Positions 179 to 40,782 of a stretch of 42,094 bases of DNA are shown one piece after another (positions within the stretch are counted from its first letter, which is position 1; each line of letters begins with the position of its first letter). A program made the position numbers and the translations under genes. Source of the DNA: a virus; IMG/VR virus record IMGVR_UViG_3300021197_001547, positions 1 through 42,094 of that record; one strand, given 5' to 3'. The notes under the pieces are model-generated. The model was not told the origin of the DNA. It was given only the letters and a program-made list of their open reading frames with translations, and ran no database searches.

Positions 179-2246
<2,068 letters not shown>

Positions 2247-2261
2247 GATTAATTACTCCAT

Positions 2262-3110
2262 TCAATATGTATTACCCTCAGCATCAATCGGTGGACCCGC
2301 AGTATAACCCGTTGCACCTCTGACGTAAATATTAGTTTCTGCTGTATACCCTGACACAGTACCTGTTGCACCAGATAGTCCGACATCAACGCGGGAGAAC
2401 GCACCTGTCGCGCCCTGAGAGGTTGCCCCTGTGGGTCCGTAGATCCAGTCGTTTAGTCCATCATTGAAGAATACAGTCTTGGTTTGACGGATAACGGAAG
2501 AGTTCTTCGTTGGACCGAAGCAGAATGACTTAGCAGTAAAGTCAAAGTTTATCTGGATGTTTCTTCTTGAATCAAAGTCTCCCTCATAATCCTCGACGAT
2601 TGACACATTGTTGAGAATGATAGGGACATCCAGTTTATCATAGAGTGTCGTGAAGTTGATTGAGACTGTGAACTCTGGTGTGAAGTAAGGCAGAATCTGT
2701 TCCATGATCTGCAATCCGTCGTCCATGTTTCGTGTGAATGCAGAGACAGCAAAGTTGAAGTTGTATGGAACTTCTGCAAACGCATAATCCAGAGTAGATC
2801 CGGCACCTGTCTGTGTAGATTGTCTGCTCTTCGATAGTGTGTTTCTTTTTCTCGATGGATCGTATGATACATCTGTAATCTCAAATCCGATACGAGGAAG
2901 TGTAATTTCTGCTTTGGCAGAATCACTCAAAGAATTGTAGTTATTGAGTCGAGTAAGAAACTTTTCCTTTGGTCCATATGATAAAGGAACCCGGATACGT
3001 TCTACTTCTGCACCCGAAGAATCACTTCGTGCAATAACGATGTCATTGAATAACGATCCGAATGCCACAACGGTTTTTCTCACGGAACTATTATAGAAAT
3101 GTGTAAACAT
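2262..3110 (-). CDS. gp15: Tail completion / sheath stabiliser protein gp15
   Basis: A 282-aa homologue of T4 gp15 (272 aa), the hexameric terminator that caps the tail tube and sheath and joins the tail to the neck. The N-terminus MFTHFYNSSVRKTVVAFGSL and the central RNMDDGLQIMEQILPYFTPE stretch are typical of the family. The last 55 or so residues are unusual: they contain several Gly-Ala-Thr-Gly units (GATSQGATG, SGATG, RGATG), absent from T4 gp15 as I know it. The start overlaps the gp14 stop by one base (TAATG), as expected for coupled neck genes. The stop is TGA at 2262-2264. Confidence 0.93.
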   Translation of the reverse strand: MFTHFYNSSVRKTVVAFGSLFNDIVIARSDSSGAEVERIRVPLSYGPKEKFLTRLNNYNSLSDSAKAEITLPRIGFEITDVSYDPSRKRNTLSKSRQSTQTGAGSTLDYAFAEVPYNFNFAVSAFTRNMDDGLQIMEQILPYFTPEFTVSINFTTLYDKLDVPIILNNVSIVEDYEGDFDSRRNIQINFDFTAKSFCFGPTKNSSVIRQTKTVFFNDGLNDWIYGPTGATSQGATGAFSRVDVGLSGATGTVSGYTAETNIYVRGATGYTAGPPIDAEGNTY

Positions 3111-4003
3111 TAATAGTTACCCTCCGAGAACGGATCATTCTCTGTGAAGTCGAATATAGAATCAGAATCAATTTCAAACTCTATTGATTCATTGTCACCA
3201 TCACTACCTCCAGTAACACCTTGTGTGATGACTGTTGTCGTAGTTACCTGTGAGTCCAGTGCATAACTGGTTCCGGTTGTTCGTCCAATGACATTCTGTG
3301 AGTTGGAGAATGTTCCAGAGATACCAACAATAGAAAGCAACTTCGTGGATAATGTCCAGTCCGTAACCTTAGCAAGTGCCGTCTCTGATCCAACAGAACC
3401 CTGATAAACTTCTTCTCCGATACGGAAGTCCTGTCCCGCATTGAGAGTTCCCAGTGTGAGTTCAATCTCAAACTCCTGTCTATCATCTTCGAGTGCATCG
3501 ATGTCCGAGTATCCGGTGTCGATTTCTTCGTGACTGTAGACGAACAGTTCGCATGAGACTTTATATGTGTGAAGTTTACCTAATTGATAGAATGGATTTT
3601 CGTGTTCAACAAACTTAATTTCAAACAAACCCTTCGAGAGTGGGAAGTAAATTAAATCACCTTCTCGGGGTTTTTGAATTGATGCCTCGTTTACTGTAAC
3701 GACTTGTTCGAATCGTTTCTTGGCAAAGACAAGACTTACACTGTCTCGTATCTCAAGTCCAAACTTAGAAACAAAGTCGCCGTCTCCTTCAAATCCATCT
3801 GCACTTTCAATATACATTTCGAGCGAGTACCCATCATCAAATTTTGACTGGGTGTCTTCACCGAACAGTTTATCTTCATTCATCAGAGTTCGGGGTATAT
3901 ACACCATATCCTCACCGTGCATTTTAATTGCTTCCACGGTGAGATCTTCAATGAGTCTTTGCTCACTCCCGATGTTTCGTCTGAAATAAGAATTTTTTGC
4001 CAT
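3110..4003 (-). CDS. gp14: Neck protein gp14
   Basis: A 297-aa homologue of T4 gp14, which with gp13 forms the neck that closes the filled head and accepts the tail. Diagnostic stretches are the N-terminal region with a GEDMVYIPR motif (about residues 30-38), followed by LFGED and SKFDDGYSLEMYIES, all common in T4-like gp14 proteins. The C-terminus is acidic and rich in Asp, Glu and Ser. The start at 4003 is just after the gp13 stop at 4005, and the stop overlaps the gp15 start, so gp13-gp14-gp15 form a translationally coupled set. Confidence 0.93.
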   Translation of the reverse strand: MAKNSYFRRNIGSEQRLIEDLTVEAIKMHGEDMVYIPRTLMNEDKLFGEDTQSKFDDGYSLEMYIESADGFEGDGDFVSKFGLEIRDSVSLVFAKKRFEQVVTVNEASIQKPREGDLIYFPLSKGLFEIKFVEHENPFYQLGKLHTYKVSCELFVYSHEEIDTGYSDIDALEDDRQEFEIELTLGTLNAGQDFRIGEEVYQGSVGSETALAKVTDWTLSTKLLSIVGISGTFSNSQNVIGRTTGTSYALDSQVTTTTVITQGVTGGSDGDNESIEFEIDSDSIFDFTENDPFSEGNY

Positions 4004-4004
4004 T

Positions 4005-4757
4005 TTATCCTACCATAAAATTCGGTGGTAACTCGTACTTGAGTTGAACTTCTTCTTCTATCTTTGTAATTTCTTCTTGTCCCTGAGAGTATAACTCTGC
4101 ACCATTGTATGAAAGACCACCGGGAAGTGTGATGTTTTGGAACTTGGATAAGTTCATTCCCCACTGTCTTTTGATCAGTGATGTAATATACTCTTTCAAA
4201 AGTCTATCATTATAGATTTCTGTGTATGTGTCTGGATCTAGAATAGAGTATGCTTCGATTACAACGAAGTCATCAACAGTAAATTGCTCCGACCAGTCAG
4301 TGTCGATCAGTAGTTTATTTGTTACTCTAGAAAATCGAACTGCCTTTTCCGGATCTAGCATCTGTTGAATAAGTGCAAGGTGTCTTTTTGTAATATCATA
4401 TTGTGCAAGATTACCCATACCAGTACGCACTCCGTAGAAATCATTAAGCGCCATTTGATACCGAACATCAAACATGTTCACGCTGTTGTTTCCTTGTTCG
4501 AAGATTCTCGTTACAGAGATAACAGATGGATCGACACCTTCCATATTAATATATTCATTTGTGATATCTTCTGCTGTTAATTGATACTTATAGAATTGTT
4601 TTTGCACACCATCAAAATGGTATTCTGCAAAGAATTGAAGTGCATCGTCAAGTCTATCTTCTACCTGTGCATCATCAACATTGATCTCGATCACAGGATC
4701 CCCGAGTCTTCTCAGGGCATAGTCCTTCAGTTGTTGTCTCGTTGCTGGTTGTGCCAT
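4005..4757 (-). CDS. gp13: Neck protein gp13
   Basis: A 250-aa homologue of T4 gp13 (309 aa), the head-completion protein that forms a ring on the portal. The N-terminus has the family pattern: TRQQLKDYALRRLGDPVIEI, then VDDAQVEDRLDDALQFFAEY. In cyanophage gp13 the same block reads almost identically. The ATG at 4757 directly abuts an upstream TAG (TAGATG) and has an AGAGGAG site a few bases further up. It is slightly shorter than in T4. Its product acts with gp14. Confidence 0.93.
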   Translation of the reverse strand: MAQPATRQQLKDYALRRLGDPVIEINVDDAQVEDRLDDALQFFAEYHFDGVQKQFYKYQLTAEDITNEYINMEGVDPSVISVTRIFEQGNNSVNMFDVRYQMALNDFYGVRTGMGNLAQYDITKRHLALIQQMLDPEKAVRFSRVTNKLLIDTDWSEQFTVDDFVVIEAYSILDPDTYTEIYNDRLLKEYITSLIKRQWGMNLSKFQNITLPGGLSYNGAELYSQGQEEITKIEEEVQLKYELPPNFMVG

Positions 4758-4855: not shown

Positions 4856-5176
4856 CTATTTTTGTTTACCAAGGAAACGTCGTACCTTCCTGATCCTTTC
4901 TGACTCGATTCGGGCCTCGTCATCATAGATCTTTTTGTAATTTTTAAACTCGTTCAATCTCGAAATGAAACGATCCCCATCTTCCCAAGGAATAGGAAGG
5001 GGGATTATTGTCGAACCATTACTTTTGTAATGCTCTCGATTTTGGATATAGACTCTGGTTCTTTGATCGTGTGGTGGATCATAGTCCGGTTCTAGTTTTT
5101 TAAAAAGTTGAATATCTATTTCTTCATTATTTATTATGACTCTATCTTCGTCTACATTATGAATAAATCTGTTCAT
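4856..5176 (-). CDS. Small hypothetical protein, 106 aa
   Basis: I do not recognise this gene. It encodes a soluble, charged protein: the N-terminal half is acidic (NVDEDRVIINNEEIDIQLF) and the C-terminal third is basic and helical, ending RIRKVRRFLGKQK. There is no signal peptide or membrane segment. The ATG at 5176 lies 11 bases after the stop of the LamG-like adhesin gene and has a TGGA-type ribosome site. Sitting directly after adhesin genes and before the neck genes, it could be a fibre-assembly helper or a small structural protein, but nothing in the sequence proves this. The stop TAG is immediately followed by the ATG of the possible micro-gene. Confidence 0.75.
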   Translation of the reverse strand: MNRFIHNVDEDRVIINNEEIDIQLFKKLEPDYDPPHDQRTRVYIQNREHYKSNGSTIIPLPIPWEDGDRFISRLNEFKNYKKIYDDEARIESERIRKVRRFLGKQK

Positions 5177-5187
5177 GTATTATTCCA

Positions 5188-7065
5188 TCATGGTTTCGTG
5201 CTAAATCCATATCCTGTTCGACTAAACGTCTCTGCCGACACCACATTAACAAACGATCCCTTAGCAACAGTAACACTAGTTGTATTTCCTAATTTAATTA
5301 CCTTTGCATCAATAATTTCTTTACCATTAGAAATTCCAACAATAGAGGATGTTTTACTCTTTGCTGATTCTGTTTCTTCTACATTCAACCTTCTAAATTC
5401 TGTTAGATCATTCCATAGGGCCAATACTTCGGATCCTCGGAACAGAACACCTTGACCTTCTGCATTTTGTACGGTGTAAGCAAGTTGAGTTCCATTTGAA
5501 TTACCTGCGTTGATCGACGTAACCACTTGACCCAACACACTCATATTTTCTGGGTTTGCTACGAAGGAAAACTCTCCTCCGCCTGTTACACCAGTATGTG
5601 TAGTACCCACTGCACCGACATATCCAGTCGTTCCACTAAATCCTGCACATCCACCTTCACCTAAGAATAGAGTACAAAATGCATTAGTAGATGAACCCAC
5701 CGGTCCTGGCATGTTAGTCTGTCCTGTGAGTCTCAAGTATTCTAAGTCGTCGGTATCTGACTGTAGTTCGTTTCTTACAATACTTTGATATGTTGCTGGA
5801 GTTACAAGATCTAGTCCTCCAACTCCGTTCGCACCACTGTTTCCTCCGGTGGACTGTACTGCGTAGTGAGCAGCACAAGACATACCTTTTATGAATCCAC
5901 CAGAAATTTGTGGGTAATTGTAGTCCCCGGTTCCTGTGACATTTTTGAGTAATAGTCTATGTCGTTGTGGATCCCAGTTCGTCACAATTCCTTCGTAGAA
6001 ATCTCTCTTCAGCAGACCCGGGGAATTTCCGGAACTTACATCAAACAGATTACAGAATCGAGGTCCGTCAGCGTCCATGTAGTATGCAACACCCGGTTGC
6101 CATTTATCGTCACCTAGATTTGCAGTGCTTCCATCCGCAGAACCAGTCTGTCCTCTTGCCTGAAGAACTGTACCAAGACAACCACTAATTAGTTCGCTTC
6201 CTGAAGTTACACCGATAACCAATTCGTCCATGTAACCAGACCATCTCTTAGTTCGATCATCCGCCTGACCAGGATTAAATACTGCCCCGAGAGAGAATGG
6301 TGCAGAGTTTAACTTTATACCTCCGCCGTCTGTAGATTGATTTTGTGTTCTTATTCCGTTTACAAACGAAGTGACAGTTGCTCCTGCTGCACTTGTAGCA
6401 TATGCAACTGCGATATGATGCCACTTTTGTCTGGGAATAAGAATACCACTAGTTGGTCCTGTGGATGCAGTGGTTAATGTAGTTACAGTTATTGAGTTGT
6501 TTAATCCTTGTGTACCAGTGTCTGCCGCATCGCTCCAGTGGAATTTAACAACATCTCCTTCTGATTTTAGAGCAAAAGAGTCTCCGCTTCCTCCGGTGAC
6601 ACCACCAAGCGGACCGGATGCTCCACTCTCAGGTCCAGTAAATCCATCAGTGTCAAGTTTACCTACGATTACGGAATCCAATCCCGAAAAAGTTGGGAAA
6701 TATAACCATGCACTTAACAGGAAGTTGTCTCCTGTTACTGCACCACCTCTACTTGGAAGGATTATAGATCCATATTGGAAAGATATAGATCTTTCGTGAC
6801 AACCCGCAGTTAGTCCCTGCCAGTTACCACCAAATGGGGTTTGGTAAATTGGAGTAGGGGATTCTGGTTGAATAAAAGCAGCAGTTTCTGGAGTTTCTGA
6901 TCTAGTATGCGCCCGAACTTTGTCTATTTCGACTCTCTCACCTGCTGCATAATCACCACACCCGATGATCGGTCTGTAATACCAACCGTCCTCTGCCGTT
7001 CCACCGGCGGATGCTCTTCTTTGGGTGGGAATACGTTGAGTTGCCCGAGGGTCTGTTCTGGTGAC
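5188..7065 (-). CDS. LamG/concanavalin-like adhesin with unresolved start (about 625 codons)
   Basis: A virion adhesin-like protein. A lectin-type jelly-roll (LamG/laminin-G-like) domain is visible: FLLSAWLYFPTFSGLDSVIV, then IPRQKWHHIAVAYA, SFVNGIRTQ and RWSGYMDELVIG, the usual strand pattern of these domains. The rest is Gly/Thr/Ser-rich with recurring TGPTG and TGATG-like pieces, ending RTGYGFSTKP. The frame is open from just after a TAA at 7066-7068 down to the TGA at 5188, yet has no ATG, GTG or TTG before the TTG at 6681. Starting at that TTG (497 aa) would cut through the first LamG strands. So the true start is uncertain: an altered start codon, an ATT at 7030-7032, readthrough from the 55-aa frame, or a sequence error. 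The coordinates give the whole open frame. Confidence 0.72.
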   Translation of the reverse strand, partial: VTRTDPRATQRIPTQRRASAGGTAEDGWYYRPIIGCGDYAAGERVEIDKVRAHTRSETPETAAFIQPESPTPIYQTPFGGNWQGLTAGCHERSISFQYGSIILPSRGGAVTGDNFLLSAWLYFPTFSGLDSVIVGKLDTDGFTGPESGASGPLGGVTGGSGDSFALKSEGDVVKFHWSDAADTGTQGLNNSITVTTLTTASTGPTSGILIPRQKWHHIAVAYATSAAGATVTSFVNGIRTQNQSTDGGGIKLNSAPFSLGAVFNPGQADDRTKRWSGYMDELVIGVTSGSELISGCLGTVLQARGQTGSADGSTANLGDDKWQPGVAYYMDADGPRFCNLFDVSSGNSPGLLKRDFYEGIVTNWDPQRHRLLLKNVTGTGDYNYPQISGGFIKGMSCAAHYAVQSTGGNSGANGVGGLDLVTPATYQSIVRNELQSDTDDLEYLRLTGQTNMPGPVGSSTNAFCTLFLGEGGCAGFSGTTGYVGAVGTTHTGVTGGGEFSFVANPENMSVLGQVVTSINAGNSNGTQLAYTVQNAEGQGVLFRGSEVLALWNDLTEFRRLNVEETESAKSKTSSIVGISNGKEIIDAKVIKLGNTTSVTVAKGSFVNVVSAETFSRTGYGFSTKP

Positions 7066-7233
7066 TTATATATGAGTTTTTAATTTGTCCAATAACGCTT
7101 GATCCATAGTGAAAACATCATACGCCGCCTTTGATCGATAGCGTGATGTGTTTGCCTCGGCATCTAAAATATCTACAATTATGCCGTTTTTGTCTAAAAC
7201 TATGGTCTTTTTTGTGTTATTTGTTACTGACAT
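7066..7233 (-). CDS. Small ORF, 55 aa, in frame with the LamG-like adhesin
   Basis: A 55-codon ORF: MSVTNNTKKTIVLDKNGIIV, then DILDAEANTSRYRSKAAYDV, ending DQALLDKLKTHI and TAA. The ATG lies nine bases after the stop of the beta-helix gene and has an AAGG-type ribosome site, so translation looks likely. The peptide has a short beta-hairpin-like start and an amphipathic helical end; no family is recognised. Its TAA is directly followed, in the same frame, by the start-less LamG-like open frame. It may therefore be an independent small protein or the N-terminus of a 681-codon gene broken by one stop. Confidence 0.65.
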   Translation of the reverse strand: MSVTNNTKKTIVLDKNGIIVDILDAEANTSRYRSKAAYDVFTMDQALLDKLKTHI

Positions 7234-7242
7234 ATAGTTACC

Positions 7243-10200
7243 TTAGTTTACACCTGATGATGGGTTAATATGCGATGAAGAATCAACTGTCCAACTATCA
7301 CCACTATTTGGAACAACCTCACCAGATTCTAGTTCTGTTATACCTACTTTATTTATGAATGAACCCAACTTGACAGAACCGTGTGCCACACTCATCCCTG
7401 CATAGATGGTAGGAGTTGTGGTTATAGTGATAGTATTGCTACTGCCAGGAGTCAATGTTCTAGAGATAACGGAGATAGCATTTTCACAATTTATAATAGA
7501 GTCTTGTATTGAGAAGAAATTATATTCTGAATTATCTCTTGCATAGGCAAAGTTTGCTTGAATGTTTGAATTCTGTTTTGCATAGTATCCACCACTGGTT
7601 CTAATACAGGCAGTGTTCTTTGCATTGATGTTACTATTTGCTCTTGAGTAAAAACCAGCACCCGAACAACTTCTTACAAAAGTATAATCTGCATCAACAG
7701 ATGAGTTCTCCATAGCGTAAGCACCAACATTTCTCATAAGAGTTATAAATGATCTTTCTGAGTTGACTGATGAGTTATTGTATGCCATTATACCGATTCC
7801 ATATGGATGATCGATAAATGTATATGTCGTGTCCTCTGGTTCTGGTGGATCTGAGTCGCATTGTGCTACACACAGGCCCGCGAATTCGGTGTCGCCGGGA
7901 CATGGACAAAGATTTGCTCTTGGTCCGCCAGGTGGACAGAAATCACACTCTAATTTTTGACCGGGAAGTCCATCACAATCTGTTCCAAAATCTATGCATG
8001 AAGACGGATTATCGCAGAAACATGGTAGTCCACCTACCCCGCCGTTGACATCGCAGCAACACGAATCTCCATTATTACAACTGTCATTTCCCGCACCGTC
8101 TACGCAGTTGGTATTACAACAAGGATCACCCGTGCAATCTGCATCTTGGCATCTATCTCCACAAGTACATGGAATGACTCCATCACTATAGCATCCGGGA
8201 TTACACTCGTCAAAGATCGGTGAGTTGCCATCACAGCAAGGAGGTCCGCTTACACAACACTCGCCCTGAGAGGGACCGCAATTACATCCATCGCAGATGC
8301 CGCAATTATTGCACTCCGCCGGTATGTCGGGGCAATTAAGGTCACACTGTTGTCCACAAGTTAAGGAGTCACAACCACACGCCGCATTCTGATCATCGGC
8401 GGCACAAAACTGGGGGGTATTGGCCTCGTCCCCACAGAATGTCCCGTTGGCACAGGAACCCTGACCGGGAACGAACTCTTCGTAACAACAACAAAGATTG
8501 AACGCCGGACACGGGAACGAGTCGTCGTTGAAAGATTGTTCTCCGCCCGATTCCTCACCACCAGTAGAATTAAATTCATCCCAAGGTGATGTATTAGAGA
8601 AGAATCCTGGCGGATAACAAACACCCCCACTAATATCTTCCTCAGAAGTACCACATGCTTGATTTGGTACATACTCTCTGGGTGTTACTGTTTCTGGTAA
8701 AACTCCATTACCGACTGACATAGAACCAGAACCATCGACAAAAATAATACCGTAAGGGGGAACTTCATTAGTTAACTCATCTCTCAGCGGTAGATTTTCT
8801 CCACTAGAGGTAGGAAACATTGCTTTAAGATAAACTTGATTTCCGGTGTTCAATGGGTAGTAATTAAATGTATCTCTTATAGGATCTCGCATTAAATTGT
8901 AAGGATCTTTGAAAGAGTTCCAAACACATGACGTTTTCACAAAACTACCATCTCCAAGTGGAAGCAGTAGAGTTTTTCCTGTATCAAGTTCGGCTACGTC
9001 AGAACCAACATTTTTTAGATCAATTACATATTGAGAATATCCAGCAGAAGCAATGAGTGAATTACCTACTTGTAAAGATGAGTTATTGTTTGCAATTGCA
9101 CCAATGATATCACAACCAGTTAGTGTTGAATTGTTTGAAATTAACGTAGAATTATCTTGTGCAACCAAACCGAAAGAACAATCTGATATTGCTACTCTAT
9201 TTAATTCTACGAATGAATTGCTGTGTGATACGATACCTGCATACCAACCAGAAAGACCAATGTTACTTGAATCTCTTGATCCAAACAACGCATTTTTATA
9301 CACTAAAATTCCCTCACCATTTGAAGATGCTGGGTTTATTTCATTGAAGTGTTTGAATCTAACATCACCTTGTAAAACAATGTCTGCCATACGGTCAAGT
9401 GTACTATTATCTGAGACAACCAACCCCTTGACAACATTTGCCCTAGATCCTGTATCTGGTCTCTTAAAGTCAAATACTGTTTTAACAATGGTTGCAGATA
9501 TCTTGTGATTAGAAATTATCTCAACACCATCAGTTGTATCTATTCCAGAAAGTGATAAACTCCCATACTTTCCAACAGGACTTGCGTCTTCGTAAGTATT
9601 CTCCACACTATCGTTAGGATAACTACCAACATAAATATCGTCACCTACGGTAAGATCTCCCCCATCAGTTACTTTAGATTTTCCTAATTTATGAAGGAAG
9701 TTTTTTCCACGGGATCTAAAAGTTAGAGTGTTATCTACCGAATTTACATTGATAATCTCAAAACAACCAAGAGTGTTTGTTCGGGAATCTGTATTCCCAC
9801 CTGTTAGTCCTTCACCATAAGAATATCCCTCTTGACGACCTGAAGGATTGTAAGTATTCGTTGTATTTATTTCATCTCGTAGTAAAATATAATCTCCAAC
9901 TTCAATACCAGATACACTGGGTGCAACCGGACTACTCGGAAGTGGAACTAAACTTTCTTTGCTTGCTACCTTAATCGTAATTCTATTATCTACCAGAGAT
10001 CCAACACCAAATCCATTCGCTGTTTTATTTTCAACCGCGTCGTACTTATAAGATGTTACCTGCTGTAAGACAAAAGGCAACGATTGCTCACCAATAAGAT
10101 CTATTCTTTTTTTGTCTTTGTTCCGGACATGAATCGGAGATCCAAAGGTATATGTTCCTCTGGCGCACTGAATTCTACCATGACCTGATTCTGTAAAAAA

Positions 10201-10371
10201 CATTCGGGAGAAGTCTGCAAATGCTCTGTTTGGGTTATAGTAAGGATTTGTTATACTTCCATCACCAGTATCATCACTCCCATTAGGAGAACAATGTAAT
10301 ATGGTAAGGTCATCAACCAAGTTTATTGGAAGTTGTCCTTGTGGTATTTTAATTGCACTTTGATCAGCCAT
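7243..10371 (-). CDS. Beta-helix (pectate-lyase-like) tail protein with cysteine-rich insertion
   Basis: A 1042-aa protein. The N-terminus has the layout of phage beta-helix fibres: CSPNGSDDTGDGSITNPYYN, then a 'GRIQCARGTYTFGSPIHV' segment as in pectate-lyase-fold proteins. From about residue 300 there are repeating coils such as SNSFVELNRVAISDCSFGLV, AQDNSTLISNNSTLTGCDII and ANNNSSLQVGNSLIAS. The coils resume after residue 850 (NNSSVNSERSFITLMRNVGA, ENSSVDADYTFVRSCSG, ANSNINAKNTACIRTSGG). Between them, residues about 572-838 form a segment with about 46 cysteines. It probably acts as a trimeric receptor-binding or polysaccharide-recognising spike; catalytic residues cannot be assigned. The ATG at 10371 has a GGAG site overlapping the previous stop. 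Confidence 0.85.
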   Translation of the reverse strand: MADQSAIKIPQGQLPINLVDDLTILHCSPNGSDDTGDGSITNPYYNPNRAFADFSRMFFTESGHGRIQCARGTYTFGSPIHVRNKDKKRIDLIGEQSLPFVLQQVTSYKYDAVENKTANGFGVGSLVDNRITIKVASKESLVPLPSSPVAPSVSGIEVGDYILLRDEINTTNTYNPSGRQEGYSYGEGLTGGNTDSRTNTLGCFEIINVNSVDNTLTFRSRGKNFLHKLGKSKVTDGGDLTVGDDIYVGSYPNDSVENTYEDASPVGKYGSLSLSGIDTTDGVEIISNHKISATIVKTVFDFKRPDTGSRANVVKGLVVSDNSTLDRMADIVLQGDVRFKHFNEINPASSNGEGILVYKNALFGSRDSSNIGLSGWYAGIVSHSNSFVELNRVAISDCSFGLVAQDNSTLISNNSTLTGCDIIGAIANNNSSLQVGNSLIASAGYSQYVIDLKNVGSDVAELDTGKTLLLPLGDGSFVKTSCVWNSFKDPYNLMRDPIRDTFNYYPLNTGNQVYLKAMFPTSSGENLPLRDELTNEVPPYGIIFVDGSGSMSVGNGVLPETVTPREYVPNQACGTSEEDISGGVCYPPGFFSNTSPWDEFNSTGGEESGGEQSFNDDSFPCPAFNLCCCYEEFVPGQGSCANGTFCGDEANTPQFCAADDQNAACGCDSLTCGQQCDLNCPDIPAECNNCGICDGCNCGPSQGECCVSGPPCCDGNSPIFDECNPGCYSDGVIPCTCGDRCQDADCTGDPCCNTNCVDGAGNDSCNNGDSCCCDVNGGVGGLPCFCDNPSSCIDFGTDCDGLPGQKLECDFCPPGGPRANLCPCPGDTEFAGLCVAQCDSDPPEPEDTTYTFIDHPYGIGIMAYNNSSVNSERSFITLMRNVGAYAMENSSVDADYTFVRSCSGAGFYSRANSNINAKNTACIRTSGGYYAKQNSNIQANFAYARDNSEYNFFSIQDSIINCENAISVISRTLTPGSSNTITITTTPTIYAGMSVAHGSVKLGSFINKVGITELESGEVVPNSGDSWTVDSSSHINPSSGVN
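7858..8656 (-). other. Cysteine-rich insertion inside the beta-helix protein
   Basis: About 267 residues containing roughly 46 cysteines (about one in six), with CCC twice and many CC, CxC and CxxC pairs, plus abundant Gly, Asp, Asn and Pro. Examples are PAFNLCCCYEEF, CGICDGCNCG and NGDSCCCDVNGG. The flanks (PPYGIIFVDGSGSMSVG before, HPYGIGIMAYNNSSVN after) belong to the beta-helix, so this is an insertion into it. It could be a disulfide-bonded or metal-binding knob. Confidence 0.85.
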
Positions 10372-10387
10372 TTTGCTTTATATTCTC

Positions 10388-11581
10388 CTAGAGTTCAGAA
10401 TCTACAGTAACCCATATTCTACCAGATACGTTGTTTGGTTTTGATGATCCGGGTCTTCCGCCGTTTGGATTGTGTCCGGTGTTTAGATCTTCTACCAATG
10501 TTCCAACAACGCCGGTCTTGGTAATTTGGATGACAAACCCGTCAACCTCTTTATGTAGTATACTTATTCCACGGTTTGGATCTGCTGATGTCCAATCACC
10601 ATATATTTGTCTTGCCACCCAGAAGTTGTTTCTTTTTTCATCCATCTTGATTAGTTCAGAAACATCGCTATCTGTTGCAATAACTCCATTTGTGGCAACA
10701 AATCCACGGATGGTTTCGAAGTACCTTTTACAATCTCTAATTTCATCTCCGATACTTCTTTGTTCAAAGTCCGTGCTTTGCTCACCTGCTTCTAGTTGAA
10801 CCTGAGAAAAATCAATCGCTTCTGTTGCTCCCGTGTTCCATCCAAGAACAGCAGATGTAGCATCACCGGCAGTTCCCGTCTGAAGATAAAATCTAGCAGC
10901 GAGATAACTACTTGCGGTGTTACCATAACCAGTGGGTGTTTCAGTTCCAACATCACCCAGAGTTTTTCCCGCTAAATCAGGAACACTAAATGTGTGTGAA
11001 TATTTCGCCCAGTCAGATCCTAGTTGGAAAGTTGCTCCGGAGAGTGGCACATCTACACTGTGGTTACTAGCACCAGTTCCAAAAACTTGAACAAGCGCCG
11101 AACTAATAACTCTAGATGACCCACTGACCGTGGTAAATCTACTCTTGAATGAAAGTGTCGCACTCTTACCAGCAAGAGTTTTTACATTTTCGATTCTTTG
11201 CTCTAGGAATGCTTCTGTGGTTTCACCGTTAGCAAAGGTTGCCGGTCCGTATAACGCAGAGAGTGATGATCCAGTTCCACTGGTTTGTACTCTTAAGTAA
11301 TGATTACTGGTAGGATTAAATCCTTGAGGACCGTCTATATCATGTTGTTTTCTTGAGACTACAACTTCTGGTTGAACACCAATGGTAGTTCCCACGGCAA
11401 AATATCTCCAGCGATCAGCAGTATATTCAAAGGTTGAACCGAGTGTAGTTTCTCCAAATCCAAATTGATATGCGTTAAACTCACCACGTTGACAGATATT
11501 GAAATCGCCATTGATAATAGCATTTCTTCTTTCTTGTGGACCTTGATGTCCTCTTAGATTTATTGCACTACTTGCGTACAT
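10388..11581 (-). CDS. Lectin-like (CBM-type) tail adhesin, 397 aa
   Basis: A virion adhesin of the type that begins with 'xxNxIINGDFxxxQRG' (here RRNAIINGDFNICQRGEFNA, residues about 18-37), found at the tips of many marine phage fibres and resembling carbohydrate-binding jelly-rolls. Further family blocks are EAFLEQRIENVKTLAGKSAT, WAKYSHTFSVPDL and IDFSQVQLEAGEQSTDFEQR, ending in the DCKRYFETI motif. The C-terminal 110 residues form an extra domain. The same block is the C-terminal domain of the 1108-aa fibre, so the two genes share a module. The ATG at 11581 follows an AAAGGAA site. It lies between the collar fibre and the beta-helix protein, so it is probably a distal receptor-binding part. 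Confidence 0.85.
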   Translation of the reverse strand: MYASSAINLRGHQGPQERRNAIINGDFNICQRGEFNAYQFGFGETTLGSTFEYTADRWRYFAVGTTIGVQPEVVVSRKQHDIDGPQGFNPTSNHYLRVQTSGTGSSLSALYGPATFANGETTEAFLEQRIENVKTLAGKSATLSFKSRFTTVSGSSRVISSALVQVFGTGASNHSVDVPLSGATFQLGSDWAKYSHTFSVPDLAGKTLGDVGTETPTGYGNTASSYLAARFYLQTGTAGDATSAVLGWNTGATEAIDFSQVQLEAGEQSTDFEQRSIGDEIRDCKRYFETIRGFVATNGVIATDSDVSELIKMDEKRNNFWVARQIYGDWTSADPNRGISILHKEVDGFVIQITKTGVVGTLVEDLNTGHNPNGGRPGSSKPNNVSGRIWVTVDSEL

Positions 11582-30926: not shown

Positions 30927-33900
30927 TTACATACCCGCCTCTGCGGCATCCATCGATTTACCGGGTGTAATTGTGAAAGAAAAATTAATTGGTACGCCTC
31001 CGGTCCAGTTTCTAACTTGAGAGGAAAATTGGACTCGTAAACTATCATCTAGAGTTTTACCTGGTCTGGTTTTGGTATGATATCCTGATGGTGCAGGAAC
31101 AGACCACTGTATAAAATTATCAGTCTGATCCCTGCCCTCGTTACAATACTCTAATAGATCATCCACGGTTTCTATCTTAAATGCTAGATTAGAACTGTTC
31201 AATTCGTGTGTACATTTCATCTGCAAGTGTTTGTCTAAAGTTTCTTGTGATGGGGGCCAGAAGAAATTTCCGTCTTGTATTGGTGCATCTCCAGTTTGTG
31301 GGTATGCAGGATCTGTGCCAGGTCCAGAAACCATCCTCTCAATTTTATCAACAACTCCGGGAGTAGTAATTTCAAACTCTGTACCAGAAGGATCGAAGAA
31401 TCTATGACCAACTGTAACCTTACTATCATTCACAAATACTTCTCTTTTCCAGCACCCATTCTTTAGTGTTTCAAATTTATCACCAGAAATATTCTTTCTT
31501 CCCCTCGCCACCCTCGCCGCATCAGTCTGTACATATTGACCGTCTCCACTAGCGTATCCCCGGCCCATAATAGAAATTGGAAGTGTCATATAGACCTCAT
31601 CCCAGTTCACAGTTTGCATAGGCATTATTTGTACATTACATACGATATTGTCTTCATTAAAAACATATTCCCTCACAATATAACCGATACCACCGCTCTG
31701 TGCCATCGCTTCGAATGAATCAGAAAAATGGCCATCTTCAAACACAGATGGTTTGTTTAGGAAGTTGTAATTGAACGCTTGTCTATGAGTGAATGTTCCA
31801 ATGTCACCATCTTGTCCACGACCAGTGTCCCATTCTGCTGTAGCATTATTGGGGGACGGATATGCCCAAGCGTAACCAGATCCATCCTCCTCGACCAAAT
31901 TGTTCCATATTGGAGCGAGTTGTCCGAGATCTGCATCCTCAGCAGGATCTGATTTTGTATATCTCTTTAAGAATATTTGATTGGATGCCAAAAACCCTTT
32001 TCGCTTACCAACTAAAACTGCGCCATTCTCTGGAGTAGTAAGCAGACTAATTCCACCACCAAATACAGTCATCCCCCATAAGTATTCGGAATCTTTCCCA
32101 TCTCCATTTTTTCTCTTAAGATACTCTTGATCTTGGTTTGCGGGATTCCAACCATCCGCGTGGAGGTGACAATAATATGAACCAGTTTTTATACTAATAC
32201 CACCAATATCAGGTCTAGTCGAGGAATTCGGATATTCACATTTTTGATTTGTATATGCTCGAAGAGCATCACTAGCAGCATTCCAATATCTTGTAAATGA
32301 AGGCCACACTTTAACAAATGATTTATCACTATGAGCAGGAAGCGGTTCAGGACGAACATTCGATAGATCTTCGTTTGCAATTGTACCTTTGGCAAATCTA
32401 TACGAATCGGTATTCACAGTATTGTCGTCCTTGTCCATCCAAGAAGACGTTGCCGTTCGTGGTGCGTCCCGTGAAACTTTCGGATTAATTCCACCAGTCG
32501 GCAACCCCGTAAAACCACCCGAGTTCTTAGCGAAGGGTTCTCGGAAACGAGTCTTAGATTTGTATTCAGGATTTGGTTCTGTTAGTCTACCCTTTGCCCA
32601 TGCTCTTTGTTCTTCTACACTTACCTGATCACCGATATTAGTATCAATATCATATATAACTCCATATGGATCTGCATTCCCTTCACCGTGATGCCATTGA
32701 CGAATCATGGGATCTGGACTCTCATATTGTCTACCCATTCCATGTGCAACCAAGGTCTGACATGCAGACATCTCTGGTATTTGTAATGTACTACCATATT
32801 CATTTCCGATAAATTGTAACCATCGTCTAGGGACAGTCGCTAAGTGACCGCCATCGACTCGGGAATTCATATCACATGCACCAGTAAGAGAACCATCCGG
32901 TTCTAATGCCATGGTGTAGTTCCAGTAATCTGTCATGTCATTTAACTGACTCTCGAAATCTCGCAAACCCAATTCTACATTTGCTAATACAGGATCGGTT
33001 GAATTTTGAATTCCTCCTGCTTTCATATTTTCTTCTAGAACATTGGCCCTTCTCTTTAGTAAATACTGTCGCACTTCATGTAAACAATACACCGCGAATG
33101 CACAGTAAATATTATCATATCCACCAGACTCTTGCCAGGTTGGAACATTATGGTTATACCGATTGTCTGATTTTCTTACATTGAGAAGGAATAGGTAATC
33201 TATAGCAGGATCGTTTAGATATGCCATTGCCTTCGCCATAGGCAACCAACAATGTACCCATTGATTGTGGGCAGAGCAGGTGTGATTACCAACAAATCTT
33301 TCGAGGTGATTTCGTATTCCCGTCCTTATTATATCTTTTACTTCTTCTGCATCATCCCCCTGAAAAATATCATCTTCATGAGTTCCGATTTCAGGATAAA
33401 CATCCAACAAAGGCATAATAGTATTTGTTACGAATGCAATCGCACCACCTCTATAATCACCGTCCCAAAATGTGCTATTATAGTTCTGATCAAACGCCAT
33501 CAATTGTTGCAGCAGTGAAAGAACAAGTCTATTTCGTATACCTACATGTTTGTAAAATGGATTTGCATCTCGGAGGAATCCCAACCCAAATGTTGGTTGG
33601 TATCCATCGCCTTGTAGATATTGCTCAGTTCCCAACGGATCCCCACCAAATGAATAGTATCTGGCTATGTGTGCGCCCATTGTCGATGTCGGTCCAAGTC
33701 TGGGGTATACTTGATCTTTCCAGTTGGAATAAATGTTTCCATCCGGATCATACAGATATCTGAATATACTCGAATACGGATTACCCAAAGATCTGAGGTT
33801 GCCGTCTGCATCCAAATGATCACCAATTACCGGTCGGATATCTTCATCAACATTAGAATGCCAATTCCATATCACACCAAACCAAGGGGAACTGGGATTC

Positions 33901-35351
33901 ATATTTTGTTCATATAGATGACATGGTAAATATTCATATGTCCCTTTACCGAAAAGAGTATTGGTAATTTGATTTAACTTATTCTCATTCCAATATTTAC
34001 TCTGCTCGAAATCACTTTCATTCTGATCATAATCGTCTTTGATATTATTATAGATCTCATCAGACATTGATGCGCCATAATCCCAAAATTGTCCTACGTT
34101 ACCACTTACAACATCTCTTGGCGTACCAATCCAATATGGATCATCTTCTGTATTAACTTTATTGAAAGCAACAGTGTTTGTTTTATACTCTTCTCTTGCT
34201 TTCTTTAGCATCATCCATGCTCGTCTTTGAATAGGATTCAAGAAAACAATTTTATTAGTGTCCCATGACTCAACTTCCAATCCATCATCATACATGTAAC
34301 TTATACCATTATTCAAACGTATTGCAGTATTTCTATCCGAACACATAATAAGTGGAACATCTGTGATGCCTTGTCTGCTATAGTTAAAGAAGTCTTTGAA
34401 ATTACTAGGAAATGGATCCGTCCGTTCTGTCGCGTCATGTGTTTCTATCATCAACGTATCACCGTGCGTATTGACACCCACTTCGGGATCTCGATTCTCC
34501 CATTCAATTCTATAGACTTCTCTTACTTTATCATTTCTGAGATGATCTGGTCCTGCTATAGAATGATCCAATGTGAGAATAGATCGAGAGACATCCTCAT
34601 CTATATCATGAACTTCCCACGTTTTTTGCCTATTGCCGTCGGCGTCTTCTGCTGGTAACATTGAAAATTCTGTAATGAGTTCACCATCACCATCGACCTC
34701 ATCCTTGAATATCTTTATGTCAAATCCTTTTCGGCCTATTTGCATAGATCTTGCTTGGAACCATTGTTTGATTCCTATGTTGGGATCCAACCCCATGATA
34801 CCCGGTGGTAGTGAGCAAAAATATACTGTACCACTTTTAGGCGCTCTATCATTCCACAAAGAAAGATCAGTTATTCCCATGTCACCCTTCCACCCATAAG
34901 GAAGTGGTGGGTCGAGTAGAAGTTCTACACTAGAAAATCTTCCATCGGAACTCAAAGTGTGATAAAAAGAACCTATTCGTATCTGATAAACACCACCACC
35001 GGAGTCAGATGCTGGTACATCAATTTGTAAATTTGAGATTCCATCAAAACCAAGTGGCCAAATTGTTTCTGAATCTGGATATTTTAAAGGTTCTGGTGGA
35101 CTGGCATCAGGTGGCCCATATACATGACCATGAAAGACATCTTTATTTTTAAAATCAACAGAGTCTAAAAATTCTTTGTAGATAGATTTTCCATTGGGGT
35201 CGAACACTTCAATTGTAAAACTGGGTGCAAAATTCCACCACTGTGGTTCAAACATAAGGTTTGCAGTGAAAGCATATCCACTCTCGTTATCAACGTAGAA
35301 TGAATAACCGAAGGAGGGGATAGAATGTCGTGTTTCTTGTCTTTCTGCCAT
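30927..35351 (-). CDS. Unrecognised 1474-aa protein, possibly polysaccharide-lyase-like
   Basis: I cannot assign a family with certainty. The N-terminus (about 1-170) looks like a beta-sandwich (SFTIEVFDPNGKSIY, GGGVYQIRIGSFYHTL). A middle region is helix-rich, with GNHTCSAHNQWVHCWLPMAK then AMAYLNDP (about 685-712), LHEVRQYLLKRR, and a Gly/His stretch SRVDGGHLATVPRRWLQFIG (about 826-845). The C-terminal third is beta-rich (GMTVFGGGISLLTTPENGAV, FVNDSKVTVGHRFFDP). A helical toroid followed by a beta-sandwich is the architecture of heparinase- and hyaluronate-lyase-like enzymes, which suggests a capsule-degrading virion enzyme; this is inference. It is the last of three large neighbouring genes. 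The ATG at 35351 follows AAGGAT, and the TAA is five bases before the late promoter box. Confidence 0.75.
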   Translation of the reverse strand: MAERQETRHSIPSFGYSFYVDNESGYAFTANLMFEPQWWNFAPSFTIEVFDPNGKSIYKEFLDSVDFKNKDVFHGHVYGPPDASPPEPLKYPDSETIWPLGFDGISNLQIDVPASDSGGGVYQIRIGSFYHTLSSDGRFSSVELLLDPPLPYGWKGDMGITDLSLWNDRAPKSGTVYFCSLPPGIMGLDPNIGIKQWFQARSMQIGRKGFDIKIFKDEVDGDGELITEFSMLPAEDADGNRQKTWEVHDIDEDVSRSILTLDHSIAGPDHLRNDKVREVYRIEWENRDPEVGVNTHGDTLMIETHDATERTDPFPSNFKDFFNYSRQGITDVPLIMCSDRNTAIRLNNGISYMYDDGLEVESWDTNKIVFLNPIQRRAWMMLKKAREEYKTNTVAFNKVNTEDDPYWIGTPRDVVSGNVGQFWDYGASMSDEIYNNIKDDYDQNESDFEQSKYWNENKLNQITNTLFGKGTYEYLPCHLYEQNMNPSSPWFGVIWNWHSNVDEDIRPVIGDHLDADGNLRSLGNPYSSIFRYLYDPDGNIYSNWKDQVYPRLGPTSTMGAHIARYYSFGGDPLGTEQYLQGDGYQPTFGLGFLRDANPFYKHVGIRNRLVLSLLQQLMAFDQNYNSTFWDGDYRGGAIAFVTNTIMPLLDVYPEIGTHEDDIFQGDDAEEVKDIIRTGIRNHLERFVGNHTCSAHNQWVHCWLPMAKAMAYLNDPAIDYLFLLNVRKSDNRYNHNVPTWQESGGYDNIYCAFAVYCLHEVRQYLLKRRANVLEENMKAGGIQNSTDPVLANVELGLRDFESQLNDMTDYWNYTMALEPDGSLTGACDMNSRVDGGHLATVPRRWLQFIGNEYGSTLQIPEMSACQTLVAHGMGRQYESPDPMIRQWHHGEGNADPYGVIYDIDTNIGDQVSVEEQRAWAKGRLTEPNPEYKSKTRFREPFAKNSGGFTGLPTGGINPKVSRDAPRTATSSWMDKDDNTVNTDSYRFAKGTIANEDLSNVRPEPLPAHSDKSFVKVWPSFTRYWNAASDALRAYTNQKCEYPNSSTRPDIGGISIKTGSYYCHLHADGWNPANQDQEYLKRKNGDGKDSEYLWGMTVFGGGISLLTTPENGAVLVGKRKGFLASNQIFLKRYTKSDPAEDADLGQLAPIWNNLVEEDGSGYAWAYPSPNNATAEWDTGRGQDGDIGTFTHRQAFNYNFLNKPSVFEDGHFSDSFEAMAQSGGIGYIVREYVFNEDNIVCNVQIMPMQTVNWDEVYMTLPISIMGRGYASGDGQYVQTDAARVARGRKNISGDKFETLKNGCWKREVFVNDSKVTVGHRFFDPSGTEFEITTPGVVDKIERMVSGPGTDPAYPQTGDAPIQDGNFFWPPSQETLDKHLQMKCTHELNSSNLAFKIETVDDLLEYCNEGRDQTDNFIQWSVPAPSGYHTKTRPGKTLDDSLRVQFSSQVRNWTGGVPINFSFTITPGKSMDAAEAGM

Positions 35352-35364
35352 ACTCTATTTATCC

Positions 35365-37020
35365 TTAAATTTCGGGGTTGAGAACATAATCACAAAGATC
35401 TCCAGGTCCAACCGTCCCACCATTAATATCATCCACCATCGTACTGCTAGACCATGAAGTTACAGAAACAATTAAACCTTTACTTAGTAACGTATTAACC
35501 AGTTTTTTGAATTCTGAGAATACCATGAGTCTACCGTTTGGGTTTTCTCCACTTTGACTATTATTAACCCACGGTGCCGTAATCAAGGCCTGAAGGTCAA
35601 GAACCGCATGATGTTCGGTTGTTGCTGGATCTAGATCCCATGTGGTAAAGTCAATAACAAACTGAGAACCTGTATTAATCTTTCCATAAAATTCTCCATC
35701 GACTTGAACACCAGAAGAAACGGGAAACAATCCCCATCCCTTGTTTTTGGTATAATCCCAAGTACCATTTAATTTCATTCCGCCATCTGCATCACGGGGA
35801 ATCAATTCAAATATTTGGTTATCAGTTCCGACTATAGTAGCGATAGTTTCTATTCGTTGATCTCCCGCCAGATAATCACTTTCGTTGTTTTTTCTGGCGA
35901 TTCTAGTTCCTGCATCAAACGAAGCATTATTAAAACCACATTGAGAAAGAATATCCCACTGACGTTGCCATTCATCTGCTGGATATACCGATGGTTCTTT
36001 ATCTGATCTTGACCACCCCGGTGCAAATGCTAAAAGATTATCATCGATAAAATCTTTGCTCGATGTTTCATATGCTTGACCATAACCTATGTAACAAAAT
36101 ACTTCTTGGACACCGGCCGCCCTTATTGCATCTGTAGCAACTTTCCACGAAGAAACTTGATCTCCTATGGACTCACCGGGTGAACCATTTGGTGTGAATG
36201 GAGTAGGATATGTGTTTACAAGACCTCGTTCCATATCTTGTCCGATCCGAGAATCACTAGCACGAGTATCGTAGGAATTTGCCTGTTCGATAAGCATACC
36301 TGTACCGGCCTTGTTTGTGAAGTATCCTTGATTGTCTTCGTTACTTCCGCTTAGAGGTTCCCCTGCCACAAACCCAGCGGGATTTCCAATCATCACACGA
36401 TTAAACACTCTTCCACCGGCAAGGGCCTTGTTTATAATCTGTTGTTGCACATAAAACAATCTACCATTTTGCTCGGGGTTCTGTAGAGCAGAAACATTAC
36501 CAAACGCTGGGGTATGTAACCAATCCGAACGACTACCGTTTATTCCATTTGCTATTCCGTAAGATTCTCTGAACCCAGAGAAAGATGCAAAGTAGTTGAT
36601 GTAGAATGGTGATCGATCTATAGTACGAGGAATAGTATTCCCCGGTTCTCCATCGCCCTCGTCTTCATCCCCACCACCAGAAGATCCTTCGAACTCGCTA
36701 ATGTAATGGCCTTCAGTGGTTTGTGGATTGTTTTTTTCAACCTCTACTTTATATTCAATATTGACAATATTTTGGGATTGAATCCAACTAAAATCGTCTG
36801 TAAAGAATGAACTACCTGGCATCGCATCACCTGATTGAATAGTTTCAATAAATGTCCAATTCGTAGTACCCAAGATACGACCGTAAAGATTATACGATAA
36901 TGCGTTTTCTGAGACTACAAAATTAATTTTATTCGCACTATCAATAATTTCAACCGATATAACACCGTTGTTCGAATTTGTTAGAGAATCACCTACAAAT
37001 ACAGTTCTATTCCATGTCAT
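35365..37020 (-). CDS. Unrecognised 551-aa protein with FN3-like and possible barrel domains
   Basis: The N-terminal 110 residues look like one fibronectin-III/Ig-type module (ISVEIIDSANKINFVV, LGTTNWTFIETIQSG, NIEYKVEVEKNN). A flexible acidic linker follows (SSGGGDEDEGDGEPGN, about 114-129), then about 420 residues with a pattern suggesting a (beta/alpha) barrel. Examples are PFYINYFASFSGFRES, WKVATDAIRAAGVQEVFCYI, QWDILSQCGFNNASFDAGTR and LVNTLLSKGLIVSVTSW. Such barrels are common in glycoside hydrolases, but no catalytic pair can be assigned by eye. The start overlaps the stop of the 1253-aa gene (ATGA at 37017-37020), and the next gene follows after 13 bases, so the three are co-translated. 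Probably a virion or adhesin component. Confidence 0.75.
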   Translation of the reverse strand: MTWNRTVFVGDSLTNSNNGVISVEIIDSANKINFVVSENALSYNLYGRILGTTNWTFIETIQSGDAMPGSSFFTDDFSWIQSQNIVNIEYKVEVEKNNPQTTEGHYISEFEGSSGGGDEDEGDGEPGNTIPRTIDRSPFYINYFASFSGFRESYGIANGINGSRSDWLHTPAFGNVSALQNPEQNGRLFYVQQQIINKALAGGRVFNRVMIGNPAGFVAGEPLSGSNEDNQGYFTNKAGTGMLIEQANSYDTRASDSRIGQDMERGLVNTYPTPFTPNGSPGESIGDQVSSWKVATDAIRAAGVQEVFCYIGYGQAYETSSKDFIDDNLLAFAPGWSRSDKEPSVYPADEWQRQWDILSQCGFNNASFDAGTRIARKNNESDYLAGDQRIETIATIVGTDNQIFELIPRDADGGMKLNGTWDYTKNKGWGLFPVSSGVQVDGEFYGKINTGSQFVIDFTTWDLDPATTEHHAVLDLQALITAPWVNNSQSGENPNGRLMVFSEFKKLVNTLLSKGLIVSVTSWSSSTMVDDINGGTVGPGDLCDYVLNPEI

Positions 37021-40000
37021 GGTCTTGCTCCACCGACAGCATCACCGATGATGTCTGTTCCTCCCGGATTGATATCCGGTCCATCATCTGCTGTATCACC
37101 ACATCCCGGATCCTCGGGGTCTCCGCCTCCATCATCAACCGTGCCTGGATCAATTTCACTGTCCTGTAGAATTATGAAAAGTGTTTCATCAGACAACGGT
37201 GGATCTGGATCTGTTATGGGCGGATCCGGAGGATCTGCGACAGGATCTAAACCAAATAATATTCTAGCGTACTGTGATTCGTAATTTATAAATTTATAAA
37301 AGTTGATTGCATTTTGTGGTGTGATATCCCCAAACTCACCGACAGTATTCCATGTGCCGGGGTGTAGTTCTCCGTTCACCAATTCGGGATTGAAGGAATC
37401 TGGTACACCTATATCACATAGGCCTTTGAGTCGTTCGGGAGCAAAGGCCTTATTCGCCGGATATGGTTCTCCATCTTGTTCTCGACCGCGAAGATACCAC
37501 TCCCATTTTGTTAAAGGCCACCACTGACCCCAATTGATTACCATTGTTGTTTTTGGGATGACAGGATCCTCTCCACCGACGAGGTGATCCCAAACTTCAA
37601 CTGGCATCCAAGGGAAATCATTCCCCACACAATTTCGATCTAGTTCCTGATCTGTCTGGTTTTCTAGAACTTGACCTGTAAATTTTCCGATGACTTGTCC
37701 ACCAATATTGTTATTAACATAATCACTTTCGGTTGGAACTACCACATCGGGGAAATGTTTTTCATATGGCCTTTGATCACAACTATTCATTGTGTTTGAT
37801 GTCGCTGCTTTCATTTCATATGCATGTGATGTCATAATACCTGCCTTTGATCCTAGACGTTCCTCCATGGCCTTAAAATAATTTCTAAGAGGCATGGTCA
37901 TATTAGTGCCTGCCTGAGAAAAATATATTTCTGCATTATTAAAGTCTACTGCACCGAGCATCATCTCTGCAATATTTTTTGTTGTTCCAAGTCCAAGGCC
38001 TTGACGAATCTCATCCATCTCTTCTCTAGTAACACGACTAAATGAGTCTGGCAAACCTGTTACATCAAGTCTATGAGTTGCGTCTCCATTCCATGCATCG
38101 TATAATGTAGCGTTTATCATACCATCAATATGATCTCTTGCAACTTCCAGTGTATACGCTCCCTCAGCACCCGGAGCAAGGTCTCCTTCGTTGAAACAAA
38201 GGTGCCAATATCTTGCATCACAACCAATCGGACCTTGATATAATGCTATTCTTCTACCGGGTTGACCAGTGAAAGCAGAATCTGAACCATCAGGTAGTGT
38301 GGGTGACTCACTTAATATAGATTTTGTATATGTGATTATATCAACAAAAGTTTGTGCCATCATTTCCAATTTTATTTGTGAAATTACCAATCGCTGTTTT
38401 AACACTTCCATTGTCGGATTCGGTTGTGCTATTTCTGAACTTATGTCGAAAGGAAAATCTGTCGGAACCCCTTCACAAGATTTTTTCCACGGACTCAATA
38501 CATGTTTCTGTTCGAAAGAGATTTCAGTTCTGTTGTTTGTTACACCGAATAGTCGTGCTAGGCCTGCTCGTTGTATAATTGAGTGGAGACACCTATCATA
38601 ATTTGGTATCTCCATATTATACAACATGATGCCAAATTCACCAACTAAATCTTCACCGATCGAATCTATGGTATCTTTCTCGTTTCTAGCGTTACTAAGA
38701 ACTCGATTTTTCATACGTTCATATAAACATTCTAGCATCGCGGACCATTGGGTTAAGTCTGCTCGATTCAAAATATGCCATCTCGTCTCATCATTAGAAT
38801 ACCACAAACCCGGTGTCCAAATTACTTGCTCTCCAATGATTCCGCCTTCAGAACCCGTTGTGAGTGGTTGTGCTTTCAGTGTTCCATCTTCACCTGTATC
38901 TGGATCAAACCAACACCCCGGATCTCCGGGGAACATCAATTCATTTCCCCGCTTGTGTCCATACTCACTACTACCAAGAGTAGAATATACTTTCTCACCA
39001 GTGATAGCATCGAAAGGCAGATCATCGCACCAGTGAGCAACAAATTTCCAATTGGTTCCTATCTCTGGAGCAGCATCAATTACGTCACCATAAATCGAAC
39101 CAACTATAGGAGTTTGATCACCAGATGGACCATTAAGTATAACGCCTCCGCGTCTTTCAGGAATGGCCCTTTTTTGTTGGACTCCGCGATCGCGGATAGA
39201 ACCCATGTAGTGTAAGTATTGATTCTTCATCCAATCAGAATCTTGATCTGTAGTATTTAACCGATCTGCTACGAAGTATATATTTTCAAGGCCGTCAGCA
39301 GGCCTCGTTTTAAATCTACCATAACCACTCGCCCACCACCTTTCCATGTTAGTTCTATAATATAATCCGCTGGGTCCAGGTCTCTCAGAATCACTTCTCA
39401 CAATACCATTTCGCCATCTAGCATAATCAGAATCAGAACCATTACCAAAATATCTCTGTCTGGTTTGAATCTGTGGATAAAATGGCAACCATGTATCATC
39501 ACCAATGTTTGGACTATCTTGCCAACCGGTCGGTGGTTCTACAAATCCACAATACCATCTGTTCCAGAGCAGAAGTTCTTCATCAGTCATGAATGGGTTG
39601 CTTATACTAGGAGAATTTCCGTTAACGAAATCGGTCGGAATATACCACGCATCACCGCCTGGAACATATGTGTCGTTTTTGTATCCCCAGTCATCAATTG
39701 GGTTGGGAAATCCAAACTGATTGTTTGCTCCCCACTTATCTTTAATTGCATGATTCATTGCTGTGCCGTTTGGTGCAGCACAAATTTCATCTCGTCCATG
39801 CTTTCCTGTGTAATAGGTTTCAACAAAATTTGGGCCCACATCAACAGGACCATAGTTGTTATGAATTTCCCATACCAATTTATTACTCAACCCAGCATTT
39901 TCTACAGCATTTCGTATTCGTTTGAAGTAGTCCGTTAGTTTAGAACCCTCCCAGTCCGGATTGTTAAAAACTACTTCCCATTCAAATGGCCAGTGAGTAG

Positions 40001-40778: not shown

Positions 40779-40782
40779 ATGA

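Follow-up and report, generated by a model that had tools for sequence, protein, structure and literature searches.

A tail protein of 1042 residues, encoded on the minus strand at positions 7243-10371 of the window (the whole 42,094-base stretch analysed, which is an IMG/VR virus record), carries between two beta-helix-type coil stacks a segment of extreme cysteine density, whose cysteines are retained among related phages while the residues between them diverge. The segment spans residues 573-838, from the first to the last cysteine (7858-8655, minus strand), and contains 46 of the 55 cysteines of the protein. The fixed cysteines and free loops, the even cysteine counts, the negative charge, the lack of histidine and the position in an adhesin cassette are best explained by a disulfide module, and the segment is considered, with some reserve, to be probably an extracellular part of a beta-helix adhesin, a spacer or knob stabilised by disulfides that would form by oxidation after lysis.

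Virus lineage and the adhesion cassette

The genes of the window lie nearly all on the minus strand in the order gp17-gp16-gp15-gp14-gp13, followed by a string of tail-fibre and baseplate genes. The gp13-type neck protein (4005-4757, minus strand), which is 94-97% identical between lineages and was used as the synteny anchor, has its best matches in Kyanoviridae phages of Pelagibacter, Methylophilales and Synechococcus at an identity below 50%, and the window is therefore assigned to a T4-like marine-type myovirus without close isolate in the searched collection; tblastn found no relatives among isolated phages. The comparison genome was a 128-kb relative, G001, which also has genes for an outer-membrane protein resembling porin O/P and for a protein like glutamine synthetase (L036, 12316-13338, and L037, 5966-7051, both minus strand). 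One match to the porin-like gene, a partial copy at 85%, lies on a 5.5-kb contig that was binned with a Flavobacteriales MAG and is itself likely of phage origin, and the other Bacteroidota matches are weak.

The identity between the window and G001 amounts to 94-99% for the gp13-gp17 proteins and to 77-100% for the core baseplate-side genes, while the protein with the cysteine segment reaches only 49%, the laminin-G-like (concanavalin-like) neighbour (5188-7233, minus strand) 59%, the neighbour of the tail-fibre C-terminal type (phrog_4492; 10388-11581, minus strand) 51%, and several other genes 30-62%. Such divergent genes beside a conserved neck-terminase block are the usual signature of a host-adhesion cassette. 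The gene studied lies between a tail-fibre protein gene and gp13-gp17, near the gene of a Collar-domain protein, and this neighbourhood together with the fold suggests that its product is present in the virion. The laminin-G-like gene contains one in-frame stop (7066-7068, codon 56) at a place that is open in the relatives, which may be natural or a sequence error. Farther along the window three long genes of 1474, 551 and 1295 residues (30927-40904), for which Pfam gave no match, adjoin highly conserved genes and are 55% and 30% identical to G001 or align over only 43 residues.

Composition and architecture of the protein

Phage virion proteins are made in a reducing cytoplasm and are usually poor in cysteine, and the other proteins of the window contain on average 0.63% of this residue, with no more than 6 per 250 residues among the long ones. 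Against this background the 46 cysteines in 266 residues (17.3%, about one residue in six), which bear out the figure of about 46 in 267 residues given by the original prediction, have a binomial chance of 2e-50 for at least that number. All of them are encoded by ordinary TGT/TGC codons, and they include two CCC runs and several CC and CxC motifs; a comparison of the segment with itself gave no match that would indicate internal tandem repeats.

The GC content of the segment (0.50 against 0.37 in the remainder of the gene) is higher, as had been noticed at the outset, but separate origin, one of the two causes named there besides Cys/Gly codon needs, is only weakly suggested by it. The third-position GC is 0.395 in the segment and 0.234 in the remainder, while in the orthologue of L002 the two values are alike (0.279 and 0.290), so that the step is largely attributable to amino-acid demand.

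The protein begins with an N-terminal domain of about residues 1-300 (9472-10371) with a CSPxGSDxxGDGSITNP-type start, which is common to homologues without the cysteine segment, and continues with a first coil stack at about residues 315-445 (9037-9429), common to L058 and L060 and predicted to form strands with pLDDT 54-75 over residues 351-440. A Cys-poor connector without coils (residues 446-572; 8656-9036) precedes the segment, and a second stack at about residues 853-970 (7462-7815) comes after it, all on the minus strand. The coils are termed beta-helix-type irrespective of handedness. AlphaFold modelled the full-length protein poorly (mean pLDDT 36, with about 20-28 in the cysteine segment), and both this model and its PDB search were set aside for the segment; nevertheless, coil-type strands appear in the model at about 353-442 and 859-968. 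When the C-terminal fragment after the insert was modelled alone, pLDDT rose to 83-95 over its residues 11-120, and the predicted strands recur every 21-23 residues, in keeping with a beta-helix, whose successive coils measure about 20-25 residues and contain about three short strands apiece; support for the first stack is weaker. The Foldseek search of this fragment against the PDB returned many beta-helix neighbours (the P22, phiAB6, AS12 and CAB1 tailspikes, pectate lyases), all of them weak and none with E < 0.001. The protein resembles tailspikes with the P22-type right-handed beta-helix (the pectate-lyase-like fold) in the coil-type repeats that flank the insert and in the tail-fibre neighbourhood, and differs from them in the lack of any significant structural or sequence match and of a counterpart of the cysteine insert in the PDB sequence search. 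No polysaccharide depolymerase domain of the window protein was matched in Pfam.

According to these data, coil-type repeats do stand on both sides of the segment, as expected from the claim that it interrupts a beta-helix cleanly; however, since about 125 non-coil residues intervene before it, the insert is placed at a domain boundary and not within an unbroken helix.

Cysteine conservation and distribution of the segment

Scans of IMG/VR added three lineages to that of the window (L002/L003/L004, L005/L009 and L006/L007), whose proteins are 44-54% identical to the window protein and all carry the cysteine-rich segment at the same position. L002 and L003 are identical across 13 kb despite differently numbered metagenomes, and L005 and L009 code for the same protein; such identical or orthologous sequences on several separate contigs led to the rejection of mis-assembly, which had been raised as a possible artefact.

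In the alignment of the four lineages invariance extends to 30 of the 46 window cysteines but to only 17 of the 220 other segment residues (Fisher p = 2e-16, indicative only, the aligned rows being related), while outside the segment 40% of the non-cysteine residues are invariant. Two close relatives, L006 and L007, are 97% identical outside the segment; inside it 44 codon differences alter the amino acid and 20 are silent, and indels occur as well, yet none of the 48 cysteines is lost, whereas about nine changes would be expected at the rate of the non-cysteine residues. The segments contain 46, 44, 50, 48 and 48 cysteines, every count being even, although parity adds little weight because it would arise in four related lineages about 1 time in 16 by chance. 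Conservation is distributed unevenly along the alignment: the last third (residues 735-838; 7858-8169, minus strand) is the best conserved and most of its cysteine columns are invariant, while large Gly/Asp-rich indels, in a stretch of very variable length, occupy the first third.

A gp13 scan yielded 80 related contigs, and at the same locus of more distant T4-like phages homologues of the N-terminal 450 residues without the cysteine segment were found. The protein of L058 (and L138) stops at about residue 535 and is matched by hhalign with a probability of 100% over residues 4-450 of the window protein, and L060 encodes at the same place a protein of 918 residues with 12 scattered cysteines (probability 99.2%). 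Thus, the original prediction of a real insert is upheld, and the opposite possibility, that the segment is an ordinary part of the fold in all homologues, is true among the four close lineages and false among the more distant ones, so that the segment either is an insert specific to these lineages or disappeared from the others. The coil stack after the insert could not be shown to be homologous to the downstream parts of the L058/L138 and L060 proteins; in particular, its match to the short protein after the L058 homologue was not significant, and a split gene is therefore no longer claimed.

Other proteins of high cysteine content are encoded in T4-like phages. In G001 a separate gene (L041, 14887-17616, minus strand) next to a hub gene, labelled gp5-like from reading of the sequence and not from a family search, encodes 910 residues with 129 cysteines without any database match; identical copies were found on contigs under other metagenome numbers, and the corresponding place in the genome of the window would fall past the contig end. 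This protein shares with the window protein the phage lineage (G001 carries the orthologue that is 54% identical), the structural gene cluster and the extreme cysteine density. The T4-like contig L081 encodes upstream of gp13 two proteins (3-677 and 1369-4449) with 25 and 50 cysteines and GACC-type repeats, the second also with leucine-rich repeats, and L035 (Marine virus AG-345-P14) encodes a fibre-like protein of 286 residues with 26 cysteines (5105-5962), whose C-terminal part contains cysteines, aromatic residues and histidine and for which tblastn matched its own record only. The L081 and L035 proteins are likewise located upstream of gp13 and are unrelated in sequence to the segment, and no Pfam family of cysteine-rich domains was matched by the G001, L081 or L035 proteins. 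Homology of the window segment to the 129-cysteine or L081 proteins was rejected, as comparison with Cys-fixed shuffles revealed nothing beyond cysteine composition (for the 129-cysteine protein 6 of 60 shuffles reached the alignment score), while the L005 segment scored above all 60 shuffles, so that, judged by alignment, an L005-type segment may be distantly linked to that protein.

A candidate disulfide scaffold and its alternatives

The disulfide reading, already put forward in the original prediction, is the most economical account of the cysteine conservation. The protein would serve a T4-like marine myovirus as a tail adhesin, of either the tailspike or the side-fibre type. In it the N-terminal domain and the first coil stack form the family scaffold, and the insert at the domain boundary, ahead of the second stack, would stand out from the fibre as an extracellular spacer or knob, either compact or shaped like a rod. 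In place of a hydrophobic core about 22-25 intra-segment disulfides would hold the segment together. In the host cytoplasm the chain would be synthesised in a reduced and acidic state, its charge (42 Asp/Glu against 3 Lys/Arg in the window segment; 42-55 against 3-7 with the orthologues included) would keep it soluble, and it would reach its final oxidised form after lysis, in oxygenated sea water. Since the framework would be fixed by disulfides, the loops between the cysteines would be nearly free to vary and could offer new surfaces for contact with the host receptor, a design with fixed cysteines and variable loops as in small disulfide-rich extracellular domains. The reading is further backed by the 129-cysteine protein in the structural cluster of G001, by the adhesion cassette, by the coils on both sides and by the homologues that lack the segment, and phage Milano provides a precedent for extensive disulfide networks in virions (PMC10811340). 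Against it stand the low pLDDT of the segment, which shows no ordered disulfide fold, the lack of a match to any recognised family of disulfide-rich domains, and the outcome of a crude search of short ORFs for CxxC, which brought up no gene like thioredoxin, DsbA or Erv in the 128-kb relative.

Four other explanations were weighed and are taken here in order of falling weight: metal binding by thiolates, a redox lock, host mimicry and a passive spacer. A metallothionein-like cluster, in which Zn, Cu or Fe-S coordinated by the cysteines would give a metal-loaded knob as the cysteine counterpart of the histidine iron sites of T4-type fibres, is unlikely, and the metal-binding part of the original prediction is weakened accordingly, although CC, CxC and CxxC spacings are common in the segment and metal-binding fibre tips do exist, with HxH iron sites in T4 gp37 and an alterophage (PMC11705849). 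The likeness to these receptor-binding fibres lies in the use of an unusual chemistry for stabilisation, but the known sites are histidine-based, while the window segment contains no histidine and its orthologues 0 or 1. Moreover, with the excess of Asp/Glu given above thiolate clusters would become extremely anionic, the overall cysteine spacing is irregular, the segments contain 10-18 aromatic residues and even numbers of cysteines, and metallothionein families gave no Pfam match at E up to 1 with the segment or its orthologues.

The disulfides might instead be meant to break at the host surface, as a lock that keeps the fibre closed until it meets a reductant or low oxygen, for which the place of the segment between two coil stacks would be a possible hinge site. 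The model for such a lock is Agrobacterium phage Milano, whose virions have an extensive disulfide network in sheath and baseplate, with short tail fibres disulfide-bonded to the baseplate, and whose disulfides must be reduced before tail contraction, by a surface reductant or local oxygen loss as its authors suggest (PMC10811340). The likeness would lie in the use of cysteines in proteins of the virion; in the Milano particle the disulfides are shown and here they are proposed. The structural proteins of Milano contain 2.1% cysteine and are bonded both within and between chains in sheath and baseplate, which contrasts with 17% in one 266-residue insert of a fibre-type protein, no homology being claimed. 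The lock is considered quite unlikely for this segment, as a switch would not need so many cysteines, and fixed cysteines with fast divergence of the loops look like a structural scaffold.

A module that the phage acquired from a host with a cysteine-rich protein envelope, or that was adapted to bind to such a host, would agree with the higher GC of the segment and with the further cysteine-rich proteins in the structural clusters of G001, L081 and L035. Yet the segment has no match in Pfam, PHROGs, NCBIfam, PDB or phage records, known disulfide-rich domains (EGF, granulin, LDL-A, WAP and others) gave no Pfam match at E up to 1 and none among the PDB sequences at E up to 10, and the alignment to the 129-cysteine protein is not clearly above the Cys-fixed shuffles. 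Host mimicry is consequently improbable, and the derivation from a eukaryote-like or extracellular protein suggested earlier finds no similarity in Pfam, PDB or NCBIfam. The least probable, and already disfavoured, is a flexible acidic spacer whose cysteines have no specific role: it would suit the nearly complete lack of predicted order in the segment, its length of 244-294 residues between lineages with the indels of the first third, and the Pro/Gly/Asp-rich beginning of the gene right after the shortened L058 homologue (2320-3216), but the cysteine conservation is strong and specific.

A description of such a segment was not found in open-access papers. If the disulfide-stabilised module is taken together with the other cysteine-rich proteins, marine T4-like phages might conceivably possess a new class of disulfide-scaffolded host-recognition modules, invented several times independently and sometimes present twice in one virion, but this wider proposal is doubtful. 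If the disulfide reading is true, the conserved frame of 44-50 cysteines with hypervariable loops would be a distinct way to diversify a receptor-binding surface, and it would raise the testable question of when and how the frame is oxidised, which might take place during assembly or be delayed until lysis releases the phage into sea water. It would also carry the recent finding of disulfides in Milano, where they lock the tail, over to the adhesion apparatus of phages in the ocean.
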